Assembly: GCF_026391055.1 (NCBI RefSeq)
Contig: NZ_JAPLET010000015.1
Span: 1-64,000 of the forward strand
Direction of reading: 5' to 3'
DNA: 64,000 bases
Source: Spirosoma sp.
GTDB taxonomy: Bacteria > Bacteroidota > Bacteroidia > Cytophagales > Spirosomataceae
Shown piece after piece: positions 26,247 to 47,620 of the stretch. How positions within the stretch are numbered: position 1 is the first letter of the stretch; every line of letters starts with the position of its first letter. Made by a program: the position numbers and the translations under genes. A model generated the notes under the pieces. It was not told the origin of the DNA and searched no databases. It saw nothing but the letters and a program-made list of their open reading frames with translations.

Positions 26247-29200
26247 TTATACGAGCGCGTCGAATAATATTTCGGCAGGGTGTTGGGCTGTACGTTTCGT
26301 GCCATCCTTAATCTGGTGACGGCAGGATGTGCCGGGGGCCGCAATGATCACGCCATCGGGCTGCTGGCGAACCGTGGGGAAAAGAACGAGTTCACCAACT
26401 TTCATCGACACCTCGTAATGTTCGGCTTCGTACCCAAAAGAACCGGCCATGCCGCAACAACCCGACGGAATCAATTGAACCGTGTAGTTCTTGGGCAACG
26501 ACAACGCCTTTTTGCCCGGCACTAGGGATGATACCGCCTTTTGCTGACAGTGACCGTGTAGTTTGATGAGTCGCGTCTCAGTCGTAAACTGCTCCGATTT
26601 GATGCGGCCTGCTTCCATTTCGCGCGCAATAAATTCTTCAAAGGTCAGTGCGTTTTCCGCAATTCGCTTCGCATCGGCAACCAGCGACTCATCGACCAGA
26701 TCAGGATATTCATCGCGGAAAGTCAGAATAGCCGAAGGCTCCAGTCCAACCAACGGCGTTTCGGACGTAACGACGTCTTTGAGCAGACGAATATTCTTCT
26801 CCGCTAGCGTCTTTGCGTAATTCAGCATTCCCTTCGACAAGGCAGCCCGGCCACTTTCGCCATGCTCTGGAATAACGACGTTATAGCCAAGCTTTTGGAA
26901 TAACTGAACTGCTTTCTGCCCAACCTCAACGTCGTTGAAATTGGTAAATTCATCGCAGAAGAGGAAGAGCGAGGAGCCATCCGGTGGCACAACACGCCGG
27001 TCCGCCGGTGCGGTCAGCAACTCCTCACTCCTCGTTCCTCGCTCCTCGCTTCTCAAAGAAAACCATTTCCGTAACGTCGTCTTTCCCATCATGGGCATCG
27101 TCCGGTCGGGGTGGAAGCCGACGAGTCGGTTGGCAATACGCCGGAGCGATGGAGTGCCCAAAACGCCATTCCAGGCCCAGGGAACCAGGGATGCCAGACT
27201 GGAAAGACGGGCGAAGTTGGCGATCAATCTGGAACGTACAGGAATACCGTGCGAGTCGTAATAGTGCTGTAAGAACTCAGCTTTTAACTTCGCTACATCG
27301 ACGTTGGAAGGGCATTCATTTTTACACCCTTTGCACGACAGGCAGAGATCGTAGGTCGCCTTGATTTCTTCGTGATCGAACCGGTTTTCTTTCGTCGAGC
27401 GCGTTAGCATCTCGCGCAGAATATTGGCCCGAGCCCTTGTTGTATCTTTTTCGTCGCGGGTGGCCATGTAGCTTGGGCACATGGTACCGCCCGACGCTTC
27501 CGTTTTGCGGCAATCGCCCGAGCCGTTGCATTGCTCGGCATGTTGCAAAACGTTCTGATCCTTGTAGCGGAAGTAGGTCTTGAAATCTGGGGTCTGCTGC
27601 CCGGCTTCGTAGCGCAGAAACGTATCCATAGGGGGCGTTTCCACAATCTTACCGGGGTTGAAAATACCGTCGGGGTCCCAGGTATGCTTGATTTGCCGCA
27701 TCAGTTCATAGTTGTGCGGACCTACCATTTGCGGAATAAACTCGCCCCGTAGCCGTCCATCGCCATGTTCGCCCGATAGCGAGCCGTCGTATTTTTTGAC
27801 GAGTGTGGCGATTTCTTCGGCAATCATCCGGTACTGCCGGTGGCCTTCTTCTGTTTTCAGATTTATGATTGGCCGCAGGTGCAGTTCCCCCGACCCCGCA
27901 TGCGCGTAATGGACGGAGTGCATATGGTGCTTTGCCAGAATCTCGTTGAAATCGCGGATATAGTCGGGCAGGTCGTGCACGTCTACGGCCGTATCTTCAA
28001 TGACGGCTACCGCTTTTTCATCGCCGGGGAGGTTGCCCAATAAACCCAGGCCAGCTTTGCGGAGAGTCCAGATTTTTTTGGAATCATCGCCGAACAGCAG
28101 CGGATAATGGTATCCCATCCCGGCGGCCTGCATTTCGGCGATCATCTCTGTAGCGAGCTGCTCGATTTCAGCTCGGGTATCACGCGACAGGTCAACGACC
28201 AGAATAATCGGGAAGTGATCTGTCGGCGTTTTCTGAACGAAGAAGCTGTTTTTACGCTGTTCCGGGTTGGTGTCGGCCCGTTCCAGAATAATATCGTCGA
28301 TCAGTTCGACGGCATAGGGTTTGTATTTGAGGGCCACCAGCGTAGCCCGCAGCGACTCATCGATGGAGTGGCAATGCACACATACCAGCCCGTTTTCTTT
28401 GGGTGGTAAGGGTACAATATTCAGCTTGATCTCAGTCAGAAAGCAAAGTGTGCCTTCCGAACCGGCAATGAACTTGGCCATATTAAACGGCTCCCCTTCC
28501 GGTTCAAACGGTTGCATGTCGAGCAGGGCGTCCAGCGCATAGCCTGTATTGCGTCGTTCGATGGATTTCTTTGGGAAATTCCGCCGAATTTCTTCCTGGT
28601 TGGCTGGGTCCGACAGGATAGCGTTTGTTGTCAGCAGAATTTTATCGGCCAGGGTAGCTGAGCCATTTCTGCGGCTTGCTTCGCCCACCTGTTTAGTAAA
28701 GTCCCAACCATTTATCGGGCCAAACTCCGCTTCCGAGCCATCGGCCAGCAGTGCTTTTACTGATAGTGTATGCTCTCTTGTGGCCCTATACACCACCGAG
28801 TTGGACCCACAGGAGTTGTTACCCACCATGCCGCCAATCATAGCCCGGTTGGCGGTGGAGGTTTCTGGGCCAAAATAAAGTCCGTACGGCTTCAGGAACT
28901 GGTTCAACTCATCCCGGATAACGCCCGGCTGAACACGCACCCAACGCTCTTCGGGATTCACTTCCAGTATTTTGGTGAAATGCTTCGATACGTCGACTAC
29001 AATGCCGCTGCCAACCACCTGACCCGCCAAGGATGTTCCGCCCGTACGGGGAATCAGGGATGTTTTATGCTCTTTAGCAAAGGCAATCAGGGTCTTTAGA
29101 TCCTCGACTGTTTTGGGAACGGCCACAGCCATTGGCATTTCCCGGTAGGCCGAAGCGTCCGTTGCGTACAGCGTTCGGTAGGTTGTATCCGTAAAAAGGT

Positions 29201-29255
29201 CACCTGTCAGGCGAACTTTCAATTCATTAAAGGGAGGAGAAACTCGTATAGACAT
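26247..29255 (-). CDS. FAD-linked oxidase with Fe-S and CCG domains (YdiJ/D-2-hydroxyglutarate dehydrogenase-like)
   Basis: 1002 residues from ATG 29255; the frame extends three codons further to a TTG. N-terminal FAD-binding domain with LIPRTGGTSLAGQVVGSGIV, FAD-oxidase C-terminal domain (HYAHAGSGELHLRPIINLKT, LSGEHGDGRLRGEFI), a Cys cluster at about 573-595 (CNGSGDCRKT, then MCPSY), a second at about 635-646 (CLSCKGCKNECP) and a C-terminal CCG domain (LHGHCQQKAV, PSGCCGMAGSFGYE). This order and length match E. coli YdiJ, which oxidises D-2-hydroxyglutarate. Substrate specificity here is inferred. About 30 residues (733-762, SLRSEERGTRSEELL to VVPPDGSS) come from a dispersed repeat element in a linker (see 26961). 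Regulation is unknown. Confidence 0.9.
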   Translation of the reverse strand: MSIRVSPPFNELKVRLTGDLFTDTTYRTLYATDASAYREMPMAVAVPKTVEDLKTLIAFAKEHKTSLIPRTGGTSLAGQVVGSGIVVDVSKHFTKILEVNPEERWVRVQPGVIRDELNQFLKPYGLYFGPETSTANRAMIGGMVGNNSCGSNSVVYRATREHTLSVKALLADGSEAEFGPINGWDFTKQVGEASRRNGSATLADKILLTTNAILSDPANQEEIRRNFPKKSIERRNTGYALDALLDMQPFEPEGEPFNMAKFIAGSEGTLCFLTEIKLNIVPLPPKENGLVCVHCHSIDESLRATLVALKYKPYAVELIDDIILERADTNPEQRKNSFFVQKTPTDHFPIILVVDLSRDTRAEIEQLATEMIAEMQAAGMGYHYPLLFGDDSKKIWTLRKAGLGLLGNLPGDEKAVAVIEDTAVDVHDLPDYIRDFNEILAKHHMHSVHYAHAGSGELHLRPIINLKTEEGHRQYRMIAEEIATLVKKYDGSLSGEHGDGRLRGEFIPQMVGPHNYELMRQIKHTWDPDGIFNPGKIVETPPMDTFLRYEAGQQTPDFKTYFRYKDQNVLQHAEQCNGSGDCRKTEASGGTMCPSYMATRDEKDTTRARANILREMLTRSTKENRFDHEEIKATYDLCLSCKGCKNECPSNVDVAKLKAEFLQHYYDSHGIPVRSRLIANFARLSSLASLVPWAWNGVLGTPSLRRIANRLVGFHPDRTMPMMGKTTLRKWFSLRSEERGTRSEELLTAPADRRVVPPDGSSLFLFCDEFTNFNDVEVGQKAVQLFQKLGYNVVIPEHGESGRAALSKGMLNYAKTLAEKNIRLLKDVVTSETPLVGLEPSAILTFRDEYPDLVDESLVADAKRIAENALTFEEFIAREMEAGRIKSEQFTTETRLIKLHGHCQQKAVSSLVPGKKALSLPKNYTVQLIPSGCCGMAGSFGYEAEHYEVSMKVGELVLFPTVRQQPDGVIIAAPGTSCRHQIKDGTKRTAQHPAEILFDALV
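26961..27054 (+). repeat. Dispersed palindromic element inserted in frame in the FAD/Fe-S gene
   Basis: The 22-base core starting GAGCGAGGAGCCATCCGGTG at 26967 is identical to one at 44785 inside another gene. A run of CTCCTCACTCC-type units (27020-27054) is the inverted counterpart of the left GAGGAAGAGCGAGGAG. The host gene is read on the other strand, so the element contributes SLRSEERGTRSEELLTAPAD and then RRVVPPDGSS. Its length is a multiple of three overall and adds no stop. The boundaries are approximate. Confidence 0.75.
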
Positions 29256-29948
29256 GATTGGCAAACGGGCAAGAATCGGACAGTAAAGATAGCGAAAGTC
29301 GCCGATACAAGTTCACGTAATACATGCGTGCCGAGTGCAACGTCATTGGAAAAAAAGGGCTGCCAGCGTTCTGGTTAGATGTGTTTTATGAAATTATAAA
29401 CAGTTATTCATGATGTAGCATGTTCTAGACTTGCCTGTTTGTTGGTAGCTAAAGAGAAGGATATATACTCGAAATAATAGGGCTATACAATCAGAAAATT
29501 GAGTTCTTTTTCAAAAATAAGTTGATCTGCTCCGGCTTAAGTATAACTACTTAGTAAACAGATATTGCATTTAAGTATAATGATGATTTAGTAATTTTTG
29601 CTTTTTTAAGTTGACCTCTTGAATACTTTTTATAATTGATAATAAGACTTCCAAAACAGTATAAAAATGCTAACAATATCGCCCGTTACCCTATTTTTTT
29701 TTGAAATTGATTAAACTTATAGACTTAGTTATAAATACAGACTGTTCATCCTCTACTACTTACAAATGAATAGTGTTTCATGAAAATTGAAAAAGTTATA
29801 AACAACATAATTCTAAAGATCTGATAAATAATAGTTTATGTTAAATATTTGATTGTTTTTATTTTAATAGTATAATATTGGTTTTATTTTTTAAGAAATT
29901 TTATGATACAATTTTGATCTTTATTATTCTGATTTTAACCTAAAGTCA
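29256..29948. other. AT-rich non-coding gap
   Basis: About 690 bases with stop codons in all frames and strongly AT-rich from 29390. I see no convincing gene, RNA or long repeat. It is the distal part of the upstream region of the first susC gene. Confidence 0.7.
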
Positions 29949-30012
29949 TTTGTATTTTTATTCCAAGCTGATGTAATTCGCCAACTGGTTTGATTTTAGT
30001 ACTATAATTTCT
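29949..30012 (+). promoter_or_regulatory. Conserved three-block signature upstream of susC 1
   Basis: Blocks TTTGTATTT (29949), GATGTAATTCGC (29970) and CTATAATTTCT (30002) recur at 38932, 38953 and 38985 upstream of the second susC gene with identical spacings of 21 and 32 bases. The distance from the last block to the start codon is also nearly the same (132 versus 133). The surrounding sequence has diverged, so the blocks look constrained. They may hold a promoter and an operator. TAATTTCT resembles the Bacteroidota -7 element. Confidence 0.65.
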
Positions 30013-30143
30013 CATCAGATTAATACAGTTGGAGGTGGATATGACTCGTTCAATTCAGCTCCAAATGGGTACAACCTTGAGGGAAAAATAGACCCTAAAC
30101 AGCGGCCAGGGATCTATAAAAAATTCATTTTTATAAAAAACCT

Positions 30144-33100
30144 ATGATGAATAAATCCTACAAAATTAACCGATCCGGTAACAACGTAGGTCAGGTTGGA
30201 GCTTGCCAACCCCAGTCAGTTAAACAGAAAGCTTTTTCGAGCTTCCTGTCGATGCTGGTCGTGTTGTTGCTGTTGAGCAATTCAGCAGCATGGGCACAGG
30301 AGCGCACGGTGACAGGTAAAGTAACAGACCCTACAGGGTCCGTTTTACCGGGTGTGAGTATTCAGGTGAAAGGTACCCAACGCGGTACCAACACAAACGG
30401 AGAGGGGGTCTACACGCTGACGAATGTACCCGACAACGCAACGCTGGTTCTTAGCTTCATTGGCTACACTACGCAGGAAGTGGCTGTGGGTAACCGCACA
30501 ACTGTTGATGTACAGCTGGCCGACGACACCAAAGCTCTTCAGGAGGTGGTTGTTGTTGGGTATGGTACGCAACGGGCAAAAGACGTTACCGGCTCGGTGG
30601 CAACACTTGGTCCGAAGGATTTCAACAAGGGGGTGATTGCTTCGCCGGAGCAACTCCTGCAGGGACGCGTAGCCGGTGTGCAGATTACACCAGCCAGCGG
30701 TGAGCCGGGTGCAGCCAATAACATTCAAATTCGGGGTGCCGTTTCGCTGCGCGGGGGTAACACGCCGTTGTACGTAATTGACGGAGTACCACTCGATGGG
30801 GGCGATTTCAGCAGTGGTACACCGGATTTCGGTACGGGTACAACCACTGCCCGGAACCCGCTGTCATTCCTGAACCCAAGCGATATTGAGAACATTTCGG
30901 TGCTTAAAGATGCGTCGGCAGCAGCTATTTATGGCGCACGGGGTGCCAATGGTGTGGTGCTGATTACGACCCGGAAAGGTCGTGCCGGTGCTCCGCAGTT
31001 CAATTTCTCGGCGTCGGGAGCTGTTTCATCGTCGTTAAAACGGTACGATCTGCTATCGGCTTCCGATTTTCTGGCAGGTGTGAAAGCCGCCGGTGGTGAC
31101 CCAACCCTCACTACGGTGAATGCCGGAGCCAATACCAACTGGCAGAATGAGATTTTGCGCACCAGCGTTTCGCAGATTTACAACGCCAGCTTTGGCGGTG
31201 GTACAAACGATACGCGGTACCTGTTTTCGCTGGGTTACCAGGATCAACAGGGTTTGGTAAAAGGTACAGGACAGCAGCGGGTCACGGGGCGTATCAATGC
31301 ATCGCAGGATCTGTTCAACAAAAAAGTAACGCTGGCTGTCAATGCCACAACCTCGTCGGTAACCGACCAGTATGCTATGACGGGTAACCAGGCTGGTGCT
31401 TTGGGTAACCTGTTTGGCGCAATGATCGGGGCTAACCCAACCTATCCTGTATTTACGAACACGAGCGATACGGCATCGTACTATCAGTTGGCGGGTGGTT
31501 CGTACCGGAATCCACGGGCCATGCTCGATTACTACCACGACAAGGGCGTAACCAACCGGACACTGGCAAACGTCAGTGCTACCTGGAACATCCTGACGGG
31601 CCTGTCACTCAAAGCAAACTTTGGTGTCGACAACTCGACGTCTACCCGCTCAACGTCCATTGACTCACGGCTGAATGGTCAGTTCACCGTACCGCTGGGT
31701 TCGGTAACCAACCAGGTCTACGCCGATGCGACCACGGGACTGGGTGGCGCTGCCTATATCAATTCGTTGAACCGACTGTCTAAACTGGTTGAGTATACGG
31801 CCAACTACAACCGGGATCTTGGTCCCGGTAAGCTGGAGGCTGTAGCCGGTTTTGCATACCAGACATTTGGTACCCGAACCAGTTATGTAGCCGCAAGCCG
31901 CTTCCCATTTAATGAATCGGCAATTTCGTACACGGATAACATCGGAGCGGCCAATACGTTAACCGGCACGGCCATTGGGGGCGGTTCGTCGCGCGGGCAA
32001 AATGATTTACAATCCTATTTTGCCCGGGCCAACTATAACTTCAAGGAGAAATACCTGTTAACGGCAACCGTTCGGGTAGATGGCTCATCGCGTTTTGGGG
32101 TAAACAATAAATACGGTACATTCCCATCGGTGGCGGGTGCTTGGCGGATATCGCAGGAAAGCTTTATTCCGAAGAATATTTTCGATGACCTCAAAATTCG
32201 GGCAAACTACGGTATTGTAGGTAACCAGGATTTTACGGGGGGCGCATCCAAAATTATTTATACCTACAACAGCTCCGGCTCACAGATTCAGCAGAACAAC
32301 CCAAACCCGGACTTGAAGTGGGAGCAAAACACCACAACTGGTGCGGGGATTGACTTTAGCATCCTGAAAGGCCATCTATCCGGTTCGATCGACTACTATC
32401 ACCGGTCTGGTACGAACACTCTGCTACAGGTGTTCTATGCCCAGCCTGCTCCGGTAAACTACAAATGGATCAACCTGCCGGGTCAGATTGTAAGTCAGGG
32501 AATTGAACTGAACCTGATCTATCAGGTTTTCCAGAAGCCGCAGTTTGGCTGGGAGGCTGTATTCAACCTAACTACGCTTGATATTAAGGCACAGAACATT
32601 GGTACAGATCAGGCCGTGGGTGCCATTAGCGGTCAGGGTCTTTCGGGTGCTTATGCCGAACGGATCACCAGCGGTTATCCACCGTTTGCGTTCTTCGTTC
32701 CCAAGTTCACGGGCTACGATGCCAATGGCTACTCGACTTATGCGGATGATAGCCGGTCGAGCTATCAGGGCAGCCCGTTTGCCAAATTACGTTTAGGGCT
32801 GACCAACAACTTTACGTTTGGTGCCTGGACGGCGAGTCTGTTCGTAAACGGTCAGTTTGGCGGCAAAATCTACAACAACACGGCCAACGCCCTGTTTGCG
32901 AAAGGTGCCCTCAAAAATGCCCGCAACGTGACCTACGACGTAGCGAACAGCACGGAAAATGGTCTGAATCCGGCATCAGTATCGACCCGCTTCCTGGAGA
33001 AAAGTGATTACGTACGGATTACAAACCTGACCATCTCGCGCCGGTTCAACCTGCCGGAGGGCGGATTTGCCAAGTCGTTATCGCTGTCGCTCACGGGTCA

Positions 33101-33257: not shown

Positions 33258-33276
33258 TCAACCATCAGGCGTCTTG

Positions 33277-33310
33277 CCCGTGTTTACACCATTTCGAGCG
33301 TAAACACGGG
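33277..33310 (+). other. Intercistronic hairpin between susC 1 and susD 1
   Basis: A perfect 11-bp stem (CCCGTGTTTAC / GTAAACACGGG) with a 12-base loop lies 20 bases after the susC stop and 36 before the susD start. It has no T-run, so it is more likely an RNA processing, stability or attenuation element than a full terminator. The second module has a hairpin at the same place (42274). Confidence 0.6.
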
Positions 33311-33345
33311 CCGAAGACAACAGACTACTTACAATTTTCAACGAC

Positions 33346-34935
33346 ATGAATTCATTTAATTATAAGACTATTGGCCTATTGACCGCTACGCTGCTGGTGG
33401 GTAGTGTGGGCATCAATGGTTGTACCAACCTGGACGACAAGGTGTTCGGGTCGCTCTCATCAACTGATGCTACACAGGGTTCTATTCGGCTCGACCCGGT
33501 GGCTACCCTTCAGGGTGCTTATCAGGCACTTAACCCCATTGCTACCAACCAGGGCCATGCGTACGCCTTGCAGGAACACCCATCCGACGAGATGATGGGG
33601 CCAACCCGTGGTACCGACTGGGACGATTTTGGCGTATGGCGTAAGCTGCACCAACATACCTGGGACTCTCAGCACGTGGAGATCCTGAATGCATGGAATG
33701 ACCTGAATACGGGTGCTTTCCGGTCCTCGCAGGCTATTTTCGCAGCGGGTTCCAATGCGCAGTTAGTCGCTCAGGCACAGTTCTTACGCGGTTTTTTTAC
33801 TTCGCAGATTGTTGACCTTTGGGGGCGCGTGCCCGTTCGTCAGGTGACGGATGCGGCCGATGCCAATCCGGCAGTGTTGAGTCGGCAGGCAGCTACCAAC
33901 TTCGTCATCAGCGATTTACGGGCTGCTTTCAATGTATTGCCATCCGTTACGCCAACAACGGCAAACGTAGCCAGCAAGGAAGCAGCTGCGGCCATGCTGG
34001 CGAAAGTGTATCTGAACCGGGCGGTATATAACCAAACGCCAACGACTCCGGCAGGGCCATTCACGTTTGTGAAAACTGATATGGACTCAGCCGTATACTT
34101 TGCCAATCAGGTGATTGCTTCCGGCAAGTTTGCGCTGACGCCAAGAGGCAGCTACTACGACAACTTTCACTGGGATAACGACCAGCGGTCGAAAGAGCTG
34201 ATCTTCACCATTCAGAACACGTCAACGGCGCAGCCGGGCAGTGTGCAGAACCGTTATTTCATGACGGAGCACTACAACCAGTACATTGGTGCCTGGAACG
34301 GCTTCACGACATTGGCTGATTTCTACAATAGCTTCGAAGCAACGGATGAACGTCGGGGTGCTCAACCTTCCGATTTAACGCCCAAAACGGGTATTACAGC
34401 TGGTTTTCAGGTTGGTCAGCAATATGGTCCTACTGGTCCTGCCGGTCCTGTCGCCCTGAAAGACCGCAGTGGTAATCCGCTGGTGTTCACACCACAAGTT
34501 AACCTTGGGCTGGCGAACGAGGTGCAGGGTATCCGGGTCGTTAAGTACCTGCCTAACCCGCTGACGTACAATAACCCTACCAACGACTATGTATTCCTGC
34601 GTTATGCGGACGTGCTGCTGATGAAAGCGGAGGCTATTCTGCGCGGAGGAACCGATCCACAAAGTCAAACAGCGGCTACGATCATCAATGACCTCCGGAC
34701 AACGCGTGGAGCTTCGACTGCTGCAACAGTTGATCTGCCCACGGTGCTGGCTGAGCGCGGTCGTGAGTTATACTGGGAAGGCTGGCGCCGGAGCGACGAG
34801 ATTCGCTTTGGTACGTTCCTGAACCCGGTCGATCAGCGTCCAACGACGTCACCCGCCACGGCTGTACTGTTCCCATTCCCGCAACAGGCTATCGACAGCA
34901 ACCCAAACCTGCAACCACAGAATCCGGGCTATTGA
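33346..34935 (+). CDS. RagB/SusD family nutrient-uptake lipoprotein (module 1)
   Basis: 529 residues, with lipoprotein signal ending GINGC (Cys about 26). It follows susC by 88 bases. SusD-like hallmarks: GAYQALNPIATNQGHAYALQ, TPR-like helices (ATNFVISDLRAAFNVLPSV; AAAMLAKVYLNRAVYNQTP), the C-terminal ELYWEGWRRSDEIRFGTFLN and the final NPNLQPQNPGY. Surface SusD lipoproteins cap the SusC barrel and help capture the ligand. No carbohydrate-specific residue can be named. Paired with the preceding SusC. Confidence 0.93.
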   Translation: MNSFNYKTIGLLTATLLVGSVGINGCTNLDDKVFGSLSSTDATQGSIRLDPVATLQGAYQALNPIATNQGHAYALQEHPSDEMMGPTRGTDWDDFGVWRKLHQHTWDSQHVEILNAWNDLNTGAFRSSQAIFAAGSNAQLVAQAQFLRGFFTSQIVDLWGRVPVRQVTDAADANPAVLSRQAATNFVISDLRAAFNVLPSVTPTTANVASKEAAAAMLAKVYLNRAVYNQTPTTPAGPFTFVKTDMDSAVYFANQVIASGKFALTPRGSYYDNFHWDNDQRSKELIFTIQNTSTAQPGSVQNRYFMTEHYNQYIGAWNGFTTLADFYNSFEATDERRGAQPSDLTPKTGITAGFQVGQQYGPTGPAGPVALKDRSGNPLVFTPQVNLGLANEVQGIRVVKYLPNPLTYNNPTNDYVFLRYADVLLMKAEAILRGGTDPQSQTAATIINDLRTTRGASTAATVDLPTVLAERGRELYWEGWRRSDEIRFGTFLNPVDQRPTTSPATAVLFPFPQQAIDSNPNLQPQNPGY

Positions 34936-34961
34936 TCGGGTTAGTTGTTACATACATTGTT

Positions 34962-34999
34962 AAACAGCAGCCTGATTGTGGGCTGCTGTTTGCTTTTCG
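34962..34999 (+). terminator. Terminator after susD 1
   Basis: A perfect 11-bp stem (AAACAGCAGCC / GGCTGCTGTTT) with an 8-base loop, followed by GCTTTTCG. It may only partly block read-through to the FG-GAP lipoprotein gene 46 bases further on. Confidence 0.75.
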
Positions 35000-35045
35000 T
35001 AGCGGGGTAATCTATTCACCCCAAAATTTCGTTATTACAGTACCC

Positions 35046-38000
35046 ATGATCAACAAACTCATTCTACTCACCATCACCCTTTTTACCCTGATCGCCTGCC
35101 ACAAACAACCGGACCCACTGTTTGTGAAGTTGACCGCCGAAGAAACGGGTGTCGATTTTGTGAACCGGAGTCTGGATAAGAAGAACTTCAATATCTTCAA
35201 CTACCGCAACTTCTACAACGGTGGGGGGGTGGCTATTGGCGATGTGAACAACGACGGCTTGCCCGACCTGTTTCTGACCTCCAATTTTGAGGAGAACAAA
35301 CTTTATCTAAACAAAGGAGGAATGAAGTTCACCGATGTGACGAAGCAGGCGGGTATTATCGGCAAGAAATTCTGGTCAACGGGCGTCACCTTTGCCGATG
35401 TGAACGGCGACGGGCTACTCGATATCTATGTCTGCAACTCCGGCAGTCGCGATGAGCGGGGCAATCAGTTGTACATCAATGAGGGCGTGAAGAATGGGCT
35501 TCCCGTCTTTGTCGAAAAAGCAAAGGAATACGGTTTGTGGGATGGGGGTTTTTCGACTCACGCGGCTTTTTTCGATTATGACCGCGACGGTGATCTGGAT
35601 ATGTATCTGCTCAACAACAGCTTCACACCAATGGATCGGCTGGGGTACGCCAATACGCGCGAAACACGGGATCGACTGGGAGGGCATAAGTTGTTTCTTA
35701 ACAGGAGTGAGGAGTTAGGAGTTAGCGGCCGGCGTTCCGGGAGTGAGGAGCCATCCGGCGGTAAAAAGAATGAGGGTGAGAAGAAAAGTGCCAAGATAGG
35801 CTCTGGTCCGTTGTTTGTGGATGTGTCGGAGAAGGCTGGGATTTACGGGAGTTTGATTGGCTTTGGGCTGGGCATTACCATCGGTGATGTGAACAACGAT
35901 AACTGGCTGGATATTTACATTTCCAACGATTTCTACGAACGCGATTACCTCTACATCAATAACCACGACGGCACATTCAAGGAAGATATCGAGAACGAAA
36001 TGGGCCACATTAGTCTGGCCTCTATGGGCGCCGATATTGCCGATGTGAACAACGACGGCAACCTCGATATTTTTGTAACGGACATGCTGCCCGATGACGA
36101 TTACCGGCTCAAAACGACTACCGCTTTTGAGAGCTATGAGTTGGGTAAACTCAAGGAGTCACGCGATTTCTTTTATCAGGATTCGCGCAATATGCTGCAC
36201 CTGAATAACGGCGACGGTACATTCTCGGAAATCGGACGAATGGCGGGCACATCGGCTACCGACTGGAGCTGGGGGGCTTTACTGTTCGATATGGATATGG
36301 ACGGCCGGAAGGATATTTTCGTGGCTAATGGTATCCTGAAAGACCTGACCGATCAGGATTACATGGCGTTTCTGGCTAGTAACCCCGATTTGCAGCCCAT
36401 GATCGAAGGCACAAAAAAATTCGACTATAAAGAATATGTCGATAAAATGGGGTCGCGTCCGTTGCCAAACTACGCCTTCCGGAATGAGGGTAACGGCATG
36501 AAATACGAAAACAAAGCTGCCGACTGGGGACTAGGTGAACCTTCATTTTCGAACGGGTCAGCCTATGGCGATCTGGATAACGACGGCGATCTGGACCTGG
36601 TTGTCAATAATAACGATTCGCCCGTGTCCATCTTCGCCAATACGTCGGTTGAGAAGAATCATAAAAACTTTCTGCGCGTACAACTTGATGGCTATGGCTA
36701 CAACCGGAATGCCATTGGTGCCAAAGTTTACGTGTATCAGAAAGGGGCTGACGGAAAGCCACAAACGCAGTTTTTGCAGCAAATGCCCAACCGGGGCTTC
36801 GAATCGTCGGTCGATTTGACGATGGTTTTTGGACTGGATAATAACCCGGCTATTGACTCGCTGGTCGTTATCTGGCCGGACGATATGAAACAACTCATCC
36901 GGCAGCCTAAAGTCAACACGACCCTGTCGCTGGCGTATAAAAATGCCGATCAACGAGCGTTATTCAACGCACCAGCCATACCGGGAGAACGGCTGTTTCA
37001 GGACATAACAGAGTCATCGAAGCTGAATTACGTGCATAAAGAAAACGAGTTTGTCGATTATGACCGCGACGGTTTATTAAAGCAGATGCTATCGCGCGAA
37101 GGCCCTGCGCTGGCCGTTGGCGACATCAATGGCGACGGGCTCGATGACGTATTCTTGGGCGGAGCCGTCGATATGCCCCGTTCCTTGTATGTTCAGCGGG
37201 CTGATGGAACATTCTATCTTCAGAAACAGCCCTTTTTACTGGACGCCATTTATACCGAAGATGTAGCCGCCACTTTCTTCGATGCTGATGGCGACAAAGA
37301 CCTGGATTTGTATGTAGCCACTGGGGGTAATGAATTTGCCGACTCGACGTATACGGCCGACCGTTTATACCTCAACGATGGAAAAGGGAATCTTACCTGG
37401 AACAGGGCCCTGCCCCGAACCCTGGCTAATAACTCCTGCGTGGTTGCGGCAGATTTTGACCTCGATGGCGATCAGGACCTGTTTGTGGGAGCGCGTATGA
37501 ATTCGGGTCGATACGGCCAAAGTCCAGACCAGTTGCTGTTGGTAAACGATGGCAAGGGCAACTTTCGAAAAGCAACCAGGGAGCTGATGCCCTTTTCGGC
37601 GAACATCGGTATGGTTACGGATGCTGTCTGGACCGATATTGATCATGATCGCTACCCAGATCTAGTACTGGTGGGTGACTGGATGCCCATCACCGTTCTG
37701 AGGAACAAGCGAGGAAAAGGGTTCGAACAGGTTGATAGCGAAACGTTGGCCAATTCGGGTGGTTGGTGGAATACCATACATGCGGCCGATCTGGACAATG
37801 ACGGCGATACAGATTTCATAGTTGGAAATCTGGGCCTTAATAGCCGTATGGTGGCCTCGGTCGCTGAACCGGCTCACTTGTACAGCAATGATTTTGATCA
37901 GAATGGGTCGTACGATCAAATCATCACCTGCTTTAGACCTACTACCGATGGCCGCGATGGAACAGTAGAAACCCGCGAATGCGTAATGGTTCAAAAGCCA

Positions 38001-38507
38001 GATTTACAGAAGCGTATTCCATCCATTAAAACCAAATACCTCAAGCATGTTGATTACGCCAAAGCAAGTTTTGACGATATTTTCTCTGCTCAGCAACGGC
38101 AGGGAATGACTGTAAGAACGGTACAAACGGCCGAAACATCGGTGCTGATCAATGATGGTAAGGGAAACTTTACACGGAAGGCGTTACCCGTGCAGGCGCA
38201 AACCTCGCCGATTCATGCCATTCTCACCGGCGACTATAATGGCGATGGCAAACAGGACATTCTGCTGGCCGGTAATTTCTTCGATGTACTGACCGAAGTA
38301 GGGCGCTATGATGCCAATTATGGCTTGCTCTTAACCGGTGATGGTAAAGGTGCTTTTGTGGCGACAAAACCCGCTCAGACCGGCTTTTTTGTACGAGGGC
38401 AAGTTCGCCGGATGACCGCCGGGCGCGGTGCGAATGGAAAATCCTTTGTTGTACTGGCGAAGAATAACGATAAAGCGCAAATTTTTGTACCCTTAAAAGG
38501 AAACTAG
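35046..38507 (+). CDS. FG-GAP/VCBS-repeat ASPIC-UnbV lipoprotein (module 1)
   Basis: 1153 residues from ATG 35046; an earlier open start at 34932 would overlap susD and lacks a signal. Lipoprotein signal MINKLILLTITLFTLIAC. Two beta-propeller-like sets of FG-GAP/VCBS repeats carry Ca-binding loops (VNNDGLPDLF, VNGDGLLDIY, YDRDGDLDMYL, LDNDGDLDLV; then INGDGLDDVF, ADGDKDLDLY, LDGDQDLFVG). Between them lies an ASPIC/UnbV domain (NRNAIGAKVYVYQ, NRGFESSVDL, PAIDSLVVIWPDD). This is the CRTAC1-like family, presumably exposed on the cell surface. Residues about 220-256 are a low-complexity insert from a dispersed element. It shares domain order with the genes at 44081 and 47621. Function unknown. 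Confidence 0.9.
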   Translation: MINKLILLTITLFTLIACHKQPDPLFVKLTAEETGVDFVNRSLDKKNFNIFNYRNFYNGGGVAIGDVNNDGLPDLFLTSNFEENKLYLNKGGMKFTDVTKQAGIIGKKFWSTGVTFADVNGDGLLDIYVCNSGSRDERGNQLYINEGVKNGLPVFVEKAKEYGLWDGGFSTHAAFFDYDRDGDLDMYLLNNSFTPMDRLGYANTRETRDRLGGHKLFLNRSEELGVSGRRSGSEEPSGGKKNEGEKKSAKIGSGPLFVDVSEKAGIYGSLIGFGLGITIGDVNNDNWLDIYISNDFYERDYLYINNHDGTFKEDIENEMGHISLASMGADIADVNNDGNLDIFVTDMLPDDDYRLKTTTAFESYELGKLKESRDFFYQDSRNMLHLNNGDGTFSEIGRMAGTSATDWSWGALLFDMDMDGRKDIFVANGILKDLTDQDYMAFLASNPDLQPMIEGTKKFDYKEYVDKMGSRPLPNYAFRNEGNGMKYENKAADWGLGEPSFSNGSAYGDLDNDGDLDLVVNNNDSPVSIFANTSVEKNHKNFLRVQLDGYGYNRNAIGAKVYVYQKGADGKPQTQFLQQMPNRGFESSVDLTMVFGLDNNPAIDSLVVIWPDDMKQLIRQPKVNTTLSLAYKNADQRALFNAPAIPGERLFQDITESSKLNYVHKENEFVDYDRDGLLKQMLSREGPALAVGDINGDGLDDVFLGGAVDMPRSLYVQRADGTFYLQKQPFLLDAIYTEDVAATFFDADGDKDLDLYVATGGNEFADSTYTADRLYLNDGKGNLTWNRALPRTLANNSCVVAADFDLDGDQDLFVGARMNSGRYGQSPDQLLLVNDGKGNFRKATRELMPFSANIGMVTDAVWTDIDHDRYPDLVLVGDWMPITVLRNKRGKGFEQVDSETLANSGGWWNTIHAADLDNDGDTDFIVGNLGLNSRMVASVAEPAHLYSNDFDQNGSYDQIITCFRPTTDGRDGTVETRECVMVQKPDLQKRIPSIKTKYLKHVDYAKASFDDIFSAQQRQGMTVRTVQTAETSVLINDGKGNFTRKALPVQAQTSPIHAILTGDYNGDGKQDILLAGNFFDVLTEVGRYDANYGLLLTGDGKGAFVATKPAQTGFFVRGQVRRMTAGRGANGKSFVVLAKNNDKAQIFVPLKGN
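35703..35764 (+). repeat. Dispersed element in frame in FG-GAP lipoprotein 1
   Basis: Contains AGGAGTGAGGAGTTAGGAGT, a GCGGCCGGCGTTCCGG spacer and the core GAGTGAGGAGCCATCCGGCG (35741). The reading frame stays open, giving RSEELGVSGRRSGSEEPSGG. It uses AGG for Arg, unlike the CGN-rich surroundings. The third paralogue (47621) lacks this segment. Confidence 0.7.
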
Positions 38508-38931: not shown

Positions 38932-38995
38932 TTTGTATTTCCGTATTAACATGATGTAATTCGCAGATTGATTAAGGATTAGTTCTATAATTTCT
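38932..38995 (+). promoter_or_regulatory. Conserved three-block signature upstream of susC 2
   Basis: Blocks TTTGTATTT (38932), GATGTAATTCGC (38953) and CTATAATTTCT (38985), the same order and spacing as upstream of susC 1. The region from the last block to the start codon is 133 bases, against 132 in module 1. TAGATTTG at 38928 overlaps the first block and fits a -7 promoter element. Confidence 0.65.
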
Positions 38996-39127
38996 AGCCA
39001 AGTTGATAGAAATAGGATGGCAAATTCATCAAATGCCTCGGAGTTTATACTACTAACTAAACAGTGTTTATAGAATATGCTTCTCCTGAATCAGGAATCA
39101 CAATCCATTCATTTTTACAAAAAACCT

Positions 39128-42265: not shown

Positions 42266-42273
42266 GTTAATCC

Positions 42274-42319
42274 GTTAATAGGCTGGCTGTTATGTGAAAG
42301 AAATGGCCAGTCTATTAAC
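42274..42319 (+). other. Intercistronic hairpin between susC 2 and susD 2
   Basis: Arms GTTAATAGGCTGGC and GCCAGTCTATTAAC (one mismatch) with a loop of about 18 bases. It lies just after the susC stop, as in module 1. T-tract is poor, so attenuation or mRNA stabilising is as likely as termination. Confidence 0.55.
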
Positions 42320-42393
42320 TCTGTTTGCGTAGACTCATCGTTAGTACCTATTTATATACTGACGCTGTAACTAGTTAACCATCAAAAACTTCT

Positions 42394-43875
42394 ATGAAAC
42401 AAATAAATATAAAATTGCTTCTGGGCTGCTCGGCGCTGATGCTCGCAGGCCAGTCCTGTACGGATTTGACCGAGACAACCTACGACGTTATTCCAACCAG
42501 CAGCACCTTCGGTAGCACACCCGCACAGGCGGCTGCACTGATTGGTCCTCTCTACAACGGACTGGGTGATTATTACGGAAACATGTCCAACCTGAATACA
42601 ACCACGGATGAGCAGATCGTGCCAACCCGGGGTGGTGACTGGAAAGACGGTGATAACTGGAAACGTTTGTATCAGCACACCTGGGACCCCATTACCGACA
42701 ACGGTCAGTTCAACGGCCCCTGGAACTGGTGCTACAACAACATCACCAGTATCAACCAGCAGTTAGGTACTGTTACGGATGTCAATACCAAAGCTGAGTT
42801 GCGGGCTCTGCGGGCATTTTTCCATTATCAGGCCATGGACCTGTTTGGTAATGTCATTATTTCTGACGCCGTTGGCGCTGCTACACCGAAGCAAAGCACA
42901 CGGGCCGATGTATTCGCCTGGGTCGAAAAAGAGCTGCTGGCGGTCTATCCAAGCCTGAGTGATGTATCAGGTGGTTCGTATTATGGACGGATGAACAAGT
43001 ACGTAGCCGATATGATTCTGGCTAAAATGTATTTGAACGCACAGGTATATACGGGTACCCCTCGTTGGGCCGATGCCATCACGCGCTGCACGAGCATAAT
43101 TTCGTCGGGTAAATTCCAGATTTCCGGAGACTACCTCAGTAACTTCTCTACCCAGAACCAGAATTCTCAGGAAACGATTCTGGCAACTCCTTTTGATAAA
43201 TCAAAACGGGGCGGGATGAACGTACAAATGAAAACGCTTCACTACCTGAACCAGTTGACCTATAACATTGGTACAGCTCCCTGGAACGGCTGGGCAACGG
43301 TAACGGAGTTCTATAACTCGTTTGATGATAAGGATGTCCGGAAGAAGCAGTGGATCGTTGGTCAGCAATTTGATGCTGCCGGTAAACCCTTGAAGGATGA
43401 CGCCCTGGACATGGTATTCCGTCCCGAAATCGAATCGTTTACATTCGATGCCGGTGCCAATGGTCGTTTGGCCGGTGCTCGTAGCCAGAAATACGAAATC
43501 CAGAAGAACAACTCATTTACCGATCAGGACAACGATTTCGTAGTCTACCGCTTAGCCGACGTGTACATGATGCGTGGGGAAGCTAACTTCCGTTTAGGCA
43601 ATGTGGGCGCTGCTTTGCCCGATTTCAACATTGTTCGCAAGCGGGCGGGTATGCCGGATTATACCAGCGCTACCCTGACACTGGACGAAATTCTCGCTGA
43701 GCGTGGTCGTGAACTGGCGTGGGAGCAACACCGCCGTCAGGATCTGATCCGTTTCGGACAGTTCACCAAGGCATGGCGCTTCAAACCTGCTTCGCAGGCG
43801 TTCCGTCAACTGTTCCCAATACCAAAGGATCAGCTGTCGCTGAACCCGAACCTGAAACAGAATCCTGGTTACTAA
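42394..43875 (+). CDS. RagB/SusD family nutrient-uptake lipoprotein (module 2)
   Basis: 493 residues. Lipoprotein signal MKQINIKLLLGCSALMLAGQ ending at SC (lipobox GQSC). SusD hallmarks: AAALIGPLYNGLGDYYGNMS, KRLYQHTWDPITDNGQ, helical repeats (LRALRAFFHYQAMDLFGNVI), and the C-terminal ILAERGRELAWEQHRRQDLI and NPNLKQNPGY. It follows susC 2 by 128 bases and is its lid/ligand-binding partner. Related to susD 1 but clearly divergent. Confidence 0.93.
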   Translation: MKQINIKLLLGCSALMLAGQSCTDLTETTYDVIPTSSTFGSTPAQAAALIGPLYNGLGDYYGNMSNLNTTTDEQIVPTRGGDWKDGDNWKRLYQHTWDPITDNGQFNGPWNWCYNNITSINQQLGTVTDVNTKAELRALRAFFHYQAMDLFGNVIISDAVGAATPKQSTRADVFAWVEKELLAVYPSLSDVSGGSYYGRMNKYVADMILAKMYLNAQVYTGTPRWADAITRCTSIISSGKFQISGDYLSNFSTQNQNSQETILATPFDKSKRGGMNVQMKTLHYLNQLTYNIGTAPWNGWATVTEFYNSFDDKDVRKKQWIVGQQFDAAGKPLKDDALDMVFRPEIESFTFDAGANGRLAGARSQKYEIQKNNSFTDQDNDFVVYRLADVYMMRGEANFRLGNVGAALPDFNIVRKRAGMPDYTSATLTLDEILAERGRELAWEQHRRQDLIRFGQFTKAWRFKPASQAFRQLFPIPKDQLSLNPNLKQNPGY

Positions 43876-43990
43876 TTTTCCTGATATGGAATGAAAACGA
43901 GCAGGCTCATTCGGGTCTGCTCGTTTCATTTCTGACTGATTAAAAGCCTATTAATCATATTTGTGCCGTGTAAGAACTTATCCAATTAGT

Positions 43991-43998
43991 TATCTTTG
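43991..43998 (+). promoter_or_regulatory. Candidate -7 promoter element TATCTTTG
   Basis: Matches TAnnTTTG exactly, 82 bases before the ATG of the FG-GAP lipoprotein gene. A -33 TTG at the usual distance is not clear. It suggests that this gene has its own promoter. Confidence 0.4.
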
Positions 43999-44080
43999 TA
44001 GTCCCGATTTCCTAAAATAACCCTCCTGAAAAATAACTTGTCTTAACGATAACTTTCTTATAATTCACGTACCTGTGCTA

Positions 44081-47000
44081 ATGCGCATCAGTTTACTAGT
44101 ACTGGCAACAGGCCTGCTTGTCGGTTGCCGCTCTGAACAGCAACAACCAGCAGACCCCCTGTTCCGAAAATTAACCGCCGAAGAAACCCACGTTAATTTT
44201 AGTAATACCATTACCGACGACAAAGACTTTAACGTCTTCAATTATCGTAATTTTTACAATGGCGGAGGGGTCGCTATCGGCGATGTGAACAATGACGGCC
44301 TGTCGGACGTGCTCCTGATCGCCAATATGGGCGATAATAAACTATATCTGAACCGAACAGCGACGAACAAAGCGGGTGCCGAACAGGGAGGAGTCCAGTT
44401 CGAGGATATTACCGCTAAAGCCGGTGTGGCCGGTAAACGGGCGTGGAGTACGGGTGCCACCTTTGCCGATGTAAACGGCGACGGTCGGCTGGATATTTAT
44501 ATCTGTAATGCCGGTAACCGCGATGGCGACGACCGGGCTAATGAACTCTTCATCAACAACGGTAACGATGCCAGTGGTATTCCCACCTTTACCGAACGGG
44601 CCGCCGAATATGGTCTCGACGATCGGGGCTATTCCACCCATGCCGCCTTCTTCGACTACGACCGCGATGGCGATCTGGACATGTATTTGCTGAATAACAG
44701 CTTCATGCCCGTCGGGAAACTGCAATATGCCAACTTACGGTCGCAGCGCGATTCGCTGGGGGGACATAAGTTGTTTGAAAATAGGAGCGAGGAGCCATCC
44801 GGTGGCGGTAAAAAGAATGAGGGAGAGAAAAAGAGTGCTAAGATAGGCTCTGGTCCGGTGTTTGTCGATGTGTCGGAGAAGGCCGGGATTTATGGGAGTT
44901 TGATTGGCTTTGGGCTGGGCATCACCATTGGCGACGTAAACGACGATAACTGGCTGGATATTTATATCTCCAACGATTTCTACGAACGCGATTACCTCTA
45001 CATCAATAATCACGATGGTACGTTCCGGGAGTCGATTAAGGAGTCGATGCCGCACACGAGTCTGTCGTCCATGGGCGCCGATGTGGCTGATGTGAATAAC
45101 GACGGTCGACTGGATATTTTCATTACCGATATGCTGCCCGGCAACGACCGGCGGCTGAAGCGTACTTCCAGCTACGAAAGTCACGATCTGGAGCAGATTA
45201 AAGTGGGCCGGGATTTTCATTACCAGTTCATGCAGAACATGCTGCACCTGAATCAGGGTAACCAGCCGGGAAATGGGGGACTGCCGGTTTTCAGCGACAT
45301 CGCCCGCTTTGCCGGCGTGCAGGCTACCGACTGGAGTTGGGGCGCGTTGCTGTTCGACATGGACAACGACGGCCAGAAAGATATTTTCGTAGCCAACGGC
45401 ATTGCCAAAGACGTAACTGATCAGGACTTTGTTAACTTCCTGGCCGACCGCGAGAACATGGCGCAGATTGCCCGGCAGCGGGCCTTTAACTTCAAAGAGT
45501 TTCTGGACAAAGCCCCGTCGGAAGGGGTACCGAACTACGCATTCCGCAACGAAGGGAACTTGCAGTTTACCAACAAAGCATTCGACTGGGGACTGTCGGA
45601 GCCCGATTTTTCCAACGGAGCCGCGTACGGCGATCTGGATAATGATGGCGATCTGGATTTGATTGTCAATAACATGAATGCGCCGGTGGCCATTTACCAG
45701 AATCAATCCGTCGAGAAAAACAACACCAACTTCCTGAAAATAAAGCTCGAAGGCACCGGCATGAACCGCAACGCCATTGGAGCCCGTGTGTTTTTATACC
45801 AGCCCGGCCAGACGCAGTTGCTTCAGCAAATGCCGAACCGGGGCTTTGAGTCGTCGGTTGACCTTAATCTGCTCTTTGGTTTAGGGGCCGGCCCTCAAAT
45901 TGATTCGCTCGTTGTTATCTGGCCAGACGATAAAATGCAGACGGTACGTAAGCCGAAGGCCAACCAGATGCTGACACTTCGGCAACAGGATGCCAATCTG
46001 CTCTGGAAACCTGCCGTCAACAGTCAGACACCCTCTTTTCAGGACAATACTGCCGCTTCGGGACTAAGCTATCTGCATCAGGAAAGCCCCTTTGTCGACT
46101 ACAACCGGGATGCTTTACTGAAGCAACAACTGTCGACCCAGGGCCCGGCACTGGCAACCGGCGATGTAAACGGCGACGGGCTTGACGATGTGTTCTTTGG
46201 CGGGGCCAGCGGGCACTCGGGCCACTTATTCGTGCAGCAGACCGCCGGGCGATTTGTGGATAAAACGCCCGTGGCCATGCGTCAGGATACCACCTTTGAA
46301 GCGGTCGACGCCGTCCTGTTCGATGCTGATGGCGATGAAGACCTGGACCTGTATGTGGTATCGGGCAGCAACGAGTTTGGCGAAGAAACTGACGAGCTGC
46401 TGGACCGTTTTTACCTCAACGATGGCAAGGGGAATTTCACCCGTTCGGAAACTGCGCTGCCCAATTTGAAAGCCAACGGCTCCTGCGTAGCGGCCGGTGA
46501 TTTCGACCGGGATGGCGACATCGACCTGTTTGTCGGCTCCCGAATGATTCCCGGCCAGTACGGGCGAGACCCGGCCAGTTACCTATTGTCGAATGACGGC
46601 ACTGGCAACTTTAAAAACTATACAAAACGCTCGCTGGCCGACGTGGAGCAACTGGGTATGGTAACCGATGCCACCTGGGCCGATCTCAACAGCGATTCGT
46701 ACCCCGAACTGGTGGTGGTAAGCGATTGGGGACCCGTGCGGGTATTCGAAAATAAGCGGGGAAAACTAAGTCAAAATGCCGAATTTACCATCAAAAACGC
46801 GCAGGGTGATGTCCTGAAAACGAATGGCTGGTGGAACTGCGTAACCGCCGGTGACGCCGATGGCGATGGCGATCTGGATCTGGTGATCGGCAATCTGGGC
46901 ACAAATTCCCGCATAAAAGCCAGTCAGACAATCCCCGCCGAACTTTACACCGGCGATTTCGACCACAATGGCACCGTTGAGCAAATCATTAACTGCGCCG

Positions 47001-47539
47001 ACGAAACGGGCGCTTTATACCCGATGGTGCTGAAGCAGGAGTTACAGAAAGCCATGCCGACGATCAAAAAGAAATATGTGAAATACGTCGACTACGCGGG
47101 CAAGAAAATCACTGATGTGCTGGATGAGGATCAGCGGAAGCAGGCGGTTATCAAACAGGCATTCATGGGTGAAACTGTCATTCTGCTGAACGATGGAAAG
47201 GGAAACCTAACGTTGCAGCCTTTACCGGCCGAGGCTCAGTTTTCGCCCGTATGTGGTGCCCTCTTCACCGATTATGATCACGACGGACGCACGGACCTGC
47301 TGCTGACCGGCAACTTTCTGGATGTACTCCCCGAAATCGGGCGCTACGACGCGAGTTATGGCGTCACCCTGCACAACAAGGGAAAAGCGGCCAACGGCAC
47401 TATCCGGTACGAATCTGTCAATCCGGCGGTATCCGGCTTTTTCGTCCGTGGGCAGGTTCGGCACATCGCCCAACTAAAACAGGGGCAAATTATTCTCGCC
47501 AAAAATAACGACAAGGCACAAGTGTTCTTTTTAAAGTAG
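44081..47539 (+). CDS. FG-GAP/VCBS-repeat ASPIC-UnbV lipoprotein (module 2)
   Basis: 1152 residues from ATG 44081 (a GTG lies two codons earlier). Lipoprotein signal MRISLLVLATGLLVGC. Domain order is the same as the module 1 paralogue: FG-GAP loops (VNNDGLSDVL, VNGDGRLDIY, YDRDGDLDMYL, VNDDNWLDIY), an ASPIC/UnbV domain (NRNAIGARVFLYQ, NRGFESSVDLNLLFGL, IDSLVVIWPDD), then a second repeat set (VNGDGLDDVFFGGA, ADGDEDLDLYVVSG, RDGDIDLFVG). Residues about 235-258 (SEEPSGGGKKNEGEKKSAKI) are repeat-derived. The DNA just after that (44810-45040) is far more similar to module 1 than the rest, suggesting recent gene conversion. Function unknown. Confidence 0.9.
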   Translation: MRISLLVLATGLLVGCRSEQQQPADPLFRKLTAEETHVNFSNTITDDKDFNVFNYRNFYNGGGVAIGDVNNDGLSDVLLIANMGDNKLYLNRTATNKAGAEQGGVQFEDITAKAGVAGKRAWSTGATFADVNGDGRLDIYICNAGNRDGDDRANELFINNGNDASGIPTFTERAAEYGLDDRGYSTHAAFFDYDRDGDLDMYLLNNSFMPVGKLQYANLRSQRDSLGGHKLFENRSEEPSGGGKKNEGEKKSAKIGSGPVFVDVSEKAGIYGSLIGFGLGITIGDVNDDNWLDIYISNDFYERDYLYINNHDGTFRESIKESMPHTSLSSMGADVADVNNDGRLDIFITDMLPGNDRRLKRTSSYESHDLEQIKVGRDFHYQFMQNMLHLNQGNQPGNGGLPVFSDIARFAGVQATDWSWGALLFDMDNDGQKDIFVANGIAKDVTDQDFVNFLADRENMAQIARQRAFNFKEFLDKAPSEGVPNYAFRNEGNLQFTNKAFDWGLSEPDFSNGAAYGDLDNDGDLDLIVNNMNAPVAIYQNQSVEKNNTNFLKIKLEGTGMNRNAIGARVFLYQPGQTQLLQQMPNRGFESSVDLNLLFGLGAGPQIDSLVVIWPDDKMQTVRKPKANQMLTLRQQDANLLWKPAVNSQTPSFQDNTAASGLSYLHQESPFVDYNRDALLKQQLSTQGPALATGDVNGDGLDDVFFGGASGHSGHLFVQQTAGRFVDKTPVAMRQDTTFEAVDAVLFDADGDEDLDLYVVSGSNEFGEETDELLDRFYLNDGKGNFTRSETALPNLKANGSCVAAGDFDRDGDIDLFVGSRMIPGQYGRDPASYLLSNDGTGNFKNYTKRSLADVEQLGMVTDATWADLNSDSYPELVVVSDWGPVRVFENKRGKLSQNAEFTIKNAQGDVLKTNGWWNCVTAGDADGDGDLDLVIGNLGTNSRIKASQTIPAELYTGDFDHNGTVEQIINCADETGALYPMVLKQELQKAMPTIKKKYVKYVDYAGKKITDVLDEDQRKQAVIKQAFMGETVILLNDGKGNLTLQPLPAEAQFSPVCGALFTDYDHDGRTDLLLTGNFLDVLPEIGRYDASYGVTLHNKGKAANGTIRYESVNPAVSGFFVRGQVRHIAQLKQGQIILAKNNDKAQVFFLK
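44783..44812 (+). repeat. Dispersed element in frame in FG-GAP lipoprotein 2
   Basis: The core GAGCGAGGAGCCATCCGGTG begins at 44785 and matches 26967 over 22 bases. It gives RSEEPSGGG in the protein. It stands at the same codon position as the element in the module 1 paralogue but is shorter. Confidence 0.75.
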
Positions 47540-47540
47540 T

Positions 47541-47613
47541 TAGGTGCGAGGTGTGAGGAGTCAGGACCCATCCGGTGGTCTTCTCCTCATTCCTGGTTCC
47601 TCACTCCTCACTA
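47541..47613. repeat. Intergenic copy of the dispersed element (inverted repeat)
   Basis: Left part TAGGTGCGAGGTGTGAGGAG, centre CCATCCGGTGG (47568-47578), right part CCTCACTCCTCACTA (47599-47613), so the GAGGAG-type units flank the core in opposite orientation. It fills nearly all of the 81 bases between two FG-GAP genes. This copy shows the element outside coding sequence. Confidence 0.7.
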
Positions 47614-47620
47614 TTACCAC

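Follow-up and report, generated by a model that had tools for sequence, protein, structure and literature searches.

A 64,000-nt stretch of the genome of Spirosoma sp. (Bacteroidota; assembly GCF_026391055.1, contig NZ_JAPLET010000015.1, positions 1 to 64,000; hereafter the window, its genome being G000) carries composite palindromic repeats that lie both between genes and, in frame, inside genes. The repeating unit is a mosaic hairpin with exchangeable parts. At fixed gene junctions in related species the palindrome is retained while its sequence largely changes. We think it probable that these are non-autonomous palindromes that disperse in Spirosoma genomes, much like repetitive extragenic palindromic (REP) sequences and Rickettsia palindromic elements (RPEs), and that resident hairpins are then overwritten. 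Rickettsia and some REPs already provide examples of palindromic repeats lying in frame, each family being recognised by its own sequence.

Results

A dispersed palindromic sequence within unrelated genes

The first-pass annotation of the window, made from the letters alone, had reported four copies of a core repeat. Four copies of GAGCGAGGAGCCATCCGGTG were indeed found, at 26967 (0 mismatches), 35741 (2), 44785 (0) and 47558 (3; previously placed at 47568), compared with a maximum of 0 in 100 dinucleotide shuffles. Three of them lie, as had been claimed, in long open frames of unrelated families. The frame at 26247-29264 (-) encodes a FAD-linked oxidase with a 4Fe-4S domain (P0001, 1005 amino acids; above the Pfam cut-offs for FAD_binding_4, FAD-oxidase_C, Fer4_17 and Fer4_8), and those at 34932-38507 (+) and 44075-47539 (+) encode paralogous FG-GAP/UnbV-ASPIC proteins (P0002 and P0003; Pfam). 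The asymmetric core is read from opposite strands in the two families, as PPDGSS in the oxidase and SEEPSGG in the FG-GAP genes, so that the likeness is one of DNA, as originally proposed; the same two facts, unrelated families and opposite strands, rule out protein homology of the four sites. GAGGAG/CTCCTC-type arms in inverted orientation were confirmed around the copies at 26961 and 47541.

The core is not confined to the window. In the whole of G000 (7.98 Mb) the 14-nt core GAGGAGCCATCCGG was found at 20 places with at most one mismatch, 9 of them exact, compared with 2 for the reversed pattern. Judged by eye, heptamers or GAGGAG/CTCCTC units flank 15 of the 20, and five (L012, L013, L015, L019 and L020) look like chance matches. 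Two of the remaining places, L006 and L007 (C20:135031-138134), proved to be the ends of one large nested hairpin, in which about 90 nt separate two CCATCCGG cores in inverted orientation, set within further GC-rich palindromic arms.

A sign of dispersal comes from a comparison between species. The FG-GAP insert at 35703-35759 shares 57 nt, at 93% identity, with the insert that S. fluviale carries in its FAD gene, although the two host genes belong to unrelated families and the FAD genes of the two species are themselves 14% apart. Descent of one site cannot explain such a match, which therefore points to copying and indicates that the insert sequence disperses.

The unit is a composite hairpin

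Among 50 loci that were read, many of them overlapping, the arms consist of mirrored tandem 7-nt repeats, RAGYNAG, with the purine arm first, around a short palindromic inner core. Either GGCTGACGC or TTGCTGACGC, each with its complement, or the pair CCATCCGG/CCGGATGG forms the halves of this core, and some units hold further nested palindromes. Across 29 elements of G000 with arrays on both sides, an element's own arms agreed at variable positions more often than permuted arms did (0.774 vs 0.712, p 0.007; p 0.0004 for a stricter set of 11), and 9 were fully mirrored where 3.9 were expected.

The exact core GGCTGACGC-N-GCGTCAGCC occurs at 7 places in the G000 genome (control, 0). By eye, two of these have GAG-type arms, four have AAGTCGGT-like 8-mer arms and one has arms of another kind. 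One core thus stands within different arm types, and the element is a mosaic. In this respect the earlier description has to be changed: dispersal, palindromy, in-frame insertion and orthologues lacking the insert were all borne out, but the unit is the composite hairpin and not the 20-nt core. A search for core octamers with mismatches gave 38 same-motif pairs, compared with 11-36 in five permuted controls, and in-gene octamer matches were therefore counted as chance. The reversed and complement heptamer patterns themselves match heptamers and were unusable as controls. Contigs C15 and C27 of G000 also carry numerous further palindromes, long and near-perfect, that have no relation to the GAG family, the arms of several ending in GCCATATCT.

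In-frame inserts occupy variable protein loops

In the oxidase gene the insert (26961-27054, -) comprises a GAG-heptamer arm, a core TTGCTGAC..CCACCGGATGGC with nested CGCACCGGCGGACCGG, and a CTC arm. It makes up most of the linker at residues ~735-768, ahead of an FCDEFTN motif. The best named relative of the protein is that of S. fluviale (93%). Counting only linkers with heptamers and an inverted repeat that at most 3 of 100 shuffles reach, a GAG insert was present in 6 of 29 Spirosoma FAD linkers (the window, S. fluviale, G004, G016, G021 and sp. 48-14). The majority of the remaining linkers are plain and shorter, at 16-24 amino acids; those of G002 and G009 are longer and of another kind. 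The orthologues examined do not have the inserted residues as conserved protein sequence, and a quick gene tree requires three changes to account for the distribution. The site is thus filled in some species and empty in most, and the in-gene copies look like real insertions.

Outside the insert, the ratio of nonsynonymous to synonymous substitution (dN/dS) between the window gene and that of S. fluviale was 0.029 (dS 0.87; 85.8% identity), which indicates that this host gene is under strong purifying selection. The copies lie in frame in unrelated genes, and that these genes are functional is judged from this one value for the FAD gene. An AlphaFold model built from a 42-row alignment had a mean predicted local distance difference test (pLDDT) score of 86.4, and insert residues 745-762 formed the longest internal stretch below 50, in keeping with the suggestion that inserts fall in loops, here a low-confidence and predicted disordered one.

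The FG-GAP insert of P0002 (35704-35762, +) would be read as RSEELGVSGRRSGSEEPSGG and has 11-nt direct repeats, GGAGTGAGGAG, at 35704 and 35740. A shorter in-frame copy in the same loop of P0003 (44784-44806, +) would give RSEEPSGG. Both lie in a conversion-like tract, 35700-35970 (+), shared with ~44780-45040: 90-column windows that start at 35703-35883 are 86-93% identical, compared with 0.46-0.80 elsewhere in the paralogues. The copies at 35741 and 44785 are therefore probably one insertion passed on by gene conversion, and we rejected their treatment as two; all three in-gene copies are in frame, as first stated, but two of them probably record a single event. In relatives such as G008, G013, G019 and G024 this loop is EGPDKP-like. 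Another FG-GAP gene (L037) also has an insert there.

In other Spirosoma species, different palindromes stand at the same sites. A paralogous FAD gene has two variable loops, in which inverted repeats that 0 of 200 shuffles reach were found in 7 of 20 species (loop 1) and 6 of 19 (loop 2). Their sequences are unlike one another (GGGCATG-like, GGAAGAG-like and CCCCTCCCC-like), and a quick tree, few branches of which are well supported, requires at least six changes of presence for each loop. Such repeats were also present in 3 of 18 FG-GAP loops of at least 14 amino acids; 13 shorter loops lie outside this count, and loops starting with HKLF, including those of the window, were missed by the search pattern. 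In one FAD paralogue, L266 of G017, each of the two loops holds a near-perfect in-frame palindrome of CCCCTCCCC type (inverted-repeat scores of 36 and 34; 0 of 200 shuffles).

Two gene junctions keep the palindrome while the letters largely change

The intergenic copy of the window (47541-47613), with imperfect heptamer arms, occupies the greater part of the 81 nt that separate two codirectional genes, from the stop at 47539 to the ATG at 47621. RNA folding of 47540-47620 gave -31.7 kcal/mol (z -2.9). No stem-loop followed by a T run, as in an intrinsic terminator, was found at 47541-47613, the one copy scanned, and a terminator was rejected there; a known RNA family was likewise rejected, since Rfam had no match in 26000-48000 at gathering thresholds.

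We then read three junctions across genomes, all picked for a GAG copy in G000. At the junction corresponding to 47540, a GAG hairpin is present in G021 and, with both arms, in G004, whereas the hairpin of G014 is GTGAAGA-like and that of G018 is of GATGAAT type; G012 (28 nt) and G015 (38 nt) have no clear hairpin, and in G017 the genes overlap at ATGA. Spacers delimited by the conserved start of the next gene measure 83 nt in G001, 91 nt in G014 and 61 nt in G016.

At the junction C15:253758-253872, 16 of 17 loci were readable, and in every one of them the spacer folds better than any of its 100 shuffles (z -4.7 to -19.1). The mean identity of these spacers was only 0.55, compared with 0.48 after shuffling. 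Their arms nevertheless match within each genome: own arms paired at -56.2 kcal/mol and swapped arms at -26.2 (p<0.00005), the own partner being best for 15 of 16 left arms and 11 of 16 right arms. The second, convergent junction, orthologous to C3:295406, was readable at 12 of 26 loci, from 9 genomes. With G001 left out, the spacers of 8 of 8 genomes fold better than any of their 100 shuffles (z -2.6 to -12.5), and own arms again paired better than swapped ones (-41.2 vs -22.4; 0 of 20,000 permutations as good). At these two fixed junctions palindromy is thus retained while the sequence largely changes. The G001 spacer at the convergent junction (L367) is ~490 nt long and holds, by eye, what seems to be a small HNH-like frame followed by a different hairpin.

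Placement and repeat types across genomes

Placement was surveyed in 2.064 Mb of G000 (C15:1-704000, C27:1-560000 and C22:1-800000), with gene calls from a simple codon model made for this analysis. A strict heptamer pattern gave 15 clusters: 7 paired and 3 single ones between genes or at a gene edge, and 5 single ones in genes, of which C15:519484 looks like chance. In G000 the palindrome is thus dispersed both between and inside genes, as RPEs are. When strong inverted repeats of any family were considered, 129 of 135 were intergenic. Of the 79 intergenic inverted repeats in the first 1.264 Mb, 32 fill their gap to within 40 nt on either side, where random placing would give 1.6, and 6 lie in divergent gaps. 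The available text of PMC13155455 describes enrichment of inverted repeats downstream of stop codons across bacteria in general; this part of the placement is therefore ordinary.

The abundance of each repeat type differs between genomes. GAGTGAG-type matches number 0-134 per Spirosoma genome (those of G017 are of GAGTGAT type) and 0-2 in 14 genomes of other genera. GATGAAT matches peak in G013 (216) and occur in two other genera as well (G026, 55; G038, 78), and GGGCATG matches are highest in G005 and G009 (40 each). Repeat type is therefore partly a property of the genome. The four GAG-richest genomes all have matches to the Y1 transposase family Y1_Tnp (G000, 3; G004, 5; G017, 3; G021, 2), and the five Spirosoma genomes without a Y1_Tnp match have only 0-10 GAG matches. 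A different long hairpin (C15:607765-607877) stands directly beside the sole clearly intact Y1 gene of G000 (C15:607306-607647), and is a candidate REP or terminal inverted repeat family of its own.

Discussion

The results presented above suggest a model in which a family of composite palindromes spreads non-autonomously, in the manner of REPs and RPEs, through Spirosoma genomes. The unit is a hairpin, with a small core (GGCTGACGC, TTGCTGACGC or CCATCCGG with their complements) between mirrored short-repeat arms, here RAGYNAG. Most copies would land between genes, close behind coding regions, where the hairpins may or may not serve a function. A few would come to lie in frame in linker loops, to be translated as a Ser/Glu/Arg-rich disordered peptide that is tolerated. 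Resident hairpins would later be overwritten by other inserting palindromes, or by slippage and arm-to-arm copying, with the outcome that palindromy persists and the letters change. Of this picture, the composite make-up, the dispersal, the occupied and vacant sites, selection on the FAD host gene and the palindromy kept at two junctions come from the data, whereas translation of the inserts and transposition itself are inferred. We put forward more tentatively a stronger form of the last step, namely that hairpin replaces hairpin at fixed sites, both junctions and reading frames, such that the palindromic form would be inherited but not the sequence, and loops would repeatedly gain new in-frame peptide.

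Several observations weigh against this model. The in-gene copies of the window fold weakly by themselves (z -1.6, -1.4 and +0.3). The single 17-nt heptamer pattern gave 45 matches compared with 2-32 for 20 permuted units, and is therefore a weak criterion when used alone. A clear short period was detected in only 8 of 107 arms of at least 24 nt among the strong hairpins of G000 (a period of 8 nt in 6 and of 7 nt in 2; shuffled arms had none). In G015 and S. arboris the FAD linker has a 10-position heptamer match alone, with no inverted arms, and neither was counted as an insert. At C15:253758-253872, 27 of 120 spacer pairs exceed 0.6 identity, for example G007/G010; close relatives are therefore still alike, and not all spacers are unrelated. 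Linkers and spacers are too variable for a target duplication or exact ends to be defined. Finally, no mover enzyme was identified in a search confined to Y1_Tnp, no member of which lies beside the GAG elements in G000.

How do other explanations compare? The junctions would be explained by resident, ancestral hairpins acting at an mRNA 3' end, as a terminator or as a spacer, selected for pairing only and not mobile, in which slippage would create short repeats and template switching would copy one arm over the other, so that the sequence drifts fast. The hairpins present in 16 of 16 readable genomes at C15:253758-253872, despite an identity of 0.55, and in 8 of 8 at the convergent junction, each with far better pairing of own arms, are what this would predict. 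It leaves unexplained, however, the 57-nt match between unrelated genes, the cores common to different loci and the in-frame palindromes in protein loops; nor does it sit easily with the 47540 junction, which is an ATGA overlap in G017, is a hairpin-free spacer of 28-38 nt in G012 and G015, and carries no terminator-like site in the window. Pure functional selection fits the junctions but neither the protein loops nor the cross-gene match; mobility is favoured, and we regard purely resident hairpins as rather unlikely. At the other extreme, the loops might merely be low-complexity linkers whose DNA likeness is chance or compositional. Loops do vary among species and many linkers have no repeat, but the four core matches where shuffles give none, the 13 of 39 paralogue loops with inverted repeats that 0 of 200 shuffles reach, and again the 57-nt match make this very hard to credit.

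A more specific version of mobility is that these are elements of the REPIN type (REP doublets forming hairpins) moved by a Y1 transposase, the REP-associated tyrosine transposase (RAYT). The hairpin form, the placement behind coding regions and the in-gene copies are as described for REPs in the available text of PMC3733652. The occurrence of Y1_Tnp in all of the GAG-richest genomes, together with the GAG-poor state of the five that lack it, speaks for this explanation, which we nevertheless hold to be improbable. The intact Y1 gene of G000 lies >80 kb from any GAG cluster in the census of C15, and so was rejected as a demonstrated mover; many genomes have Y1 matches but few GAG matches; and Y1_Tnp matches are absent from G001, G015 and G019, which nonetheless contain 44, 22 and 47 GATGAAT-type matches. 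Dispersal of composite palindromes, by whatever presumptive transposition enzyme, thus remains the reading that we prefer.

Since orthologous sites within one genus bear differing palindromes, the origin, spread and upkeep of DNA palindromes become testable in close strains. The in-frame copies suggest, moreover, that a mobile repeat may supply disordered protein linkers without breaking the gene.

Relation to known palindromic elements

No title or abstract beginning that we found describes such elements in Spirosoma. A close structural parallel may be the small dispersed repeats (SDRs) of Nostoc, reportedly described by Elhai et al. in 2008 as a small hairpin core within 7-nt tandem repeats, with nested insertions. 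They share with the Spirosoma element a hairpin core embedded in heptameric repeats and nested insertion, whereas in-frame protein loops and replacement across species are not known to belong to that description. Of the traits of miniature inverted-repeat transposable elements, inverted arms are present and a target duplication is undefinable.

SDRs are also mentioned in the available text of PMC3116915, which with that of PMC3733652 describes REP and REPIN hairpins as lying mainly in codirectional and convergent gaps behind coding regions, and some in open reading frames. The Spirosoma element is alike in all three respects: hairpin form, placement behind coding regions and some copies in reading frames. 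It differs in having arms of tandem repeats. An unpaired GTAG or CGTC end tag was not recognised: CGTC was found within the paired core GCGTCAGC, and GTAG-like feet lie near some copies, by eye, but not all. Nor was a flanking RAYT seen, the Y1 genes of G000 having been inspected.

RPEs, of 105-146 bp (PMC2229807), are portrayed in the available text of PMC2229807 and PMC3733652 as small palindromes with intergenic copies and with others in frame within functional genes of unrelated families, to which they add peptide. The Spirosoma palindromes are likewise intergenic and in frame in unrelated genes, where they would add peptide. They differ in that their arms are mirrored 7-nt repeats, their cores are exchangeable and other palindromes occupy the same sites elsewhere. 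Whether or not it belongs to the RPE family, the Spirosoma element works like an RPE in form and in-gene placement, the respects in which the resemblance noted in the first-pass annotation holds.

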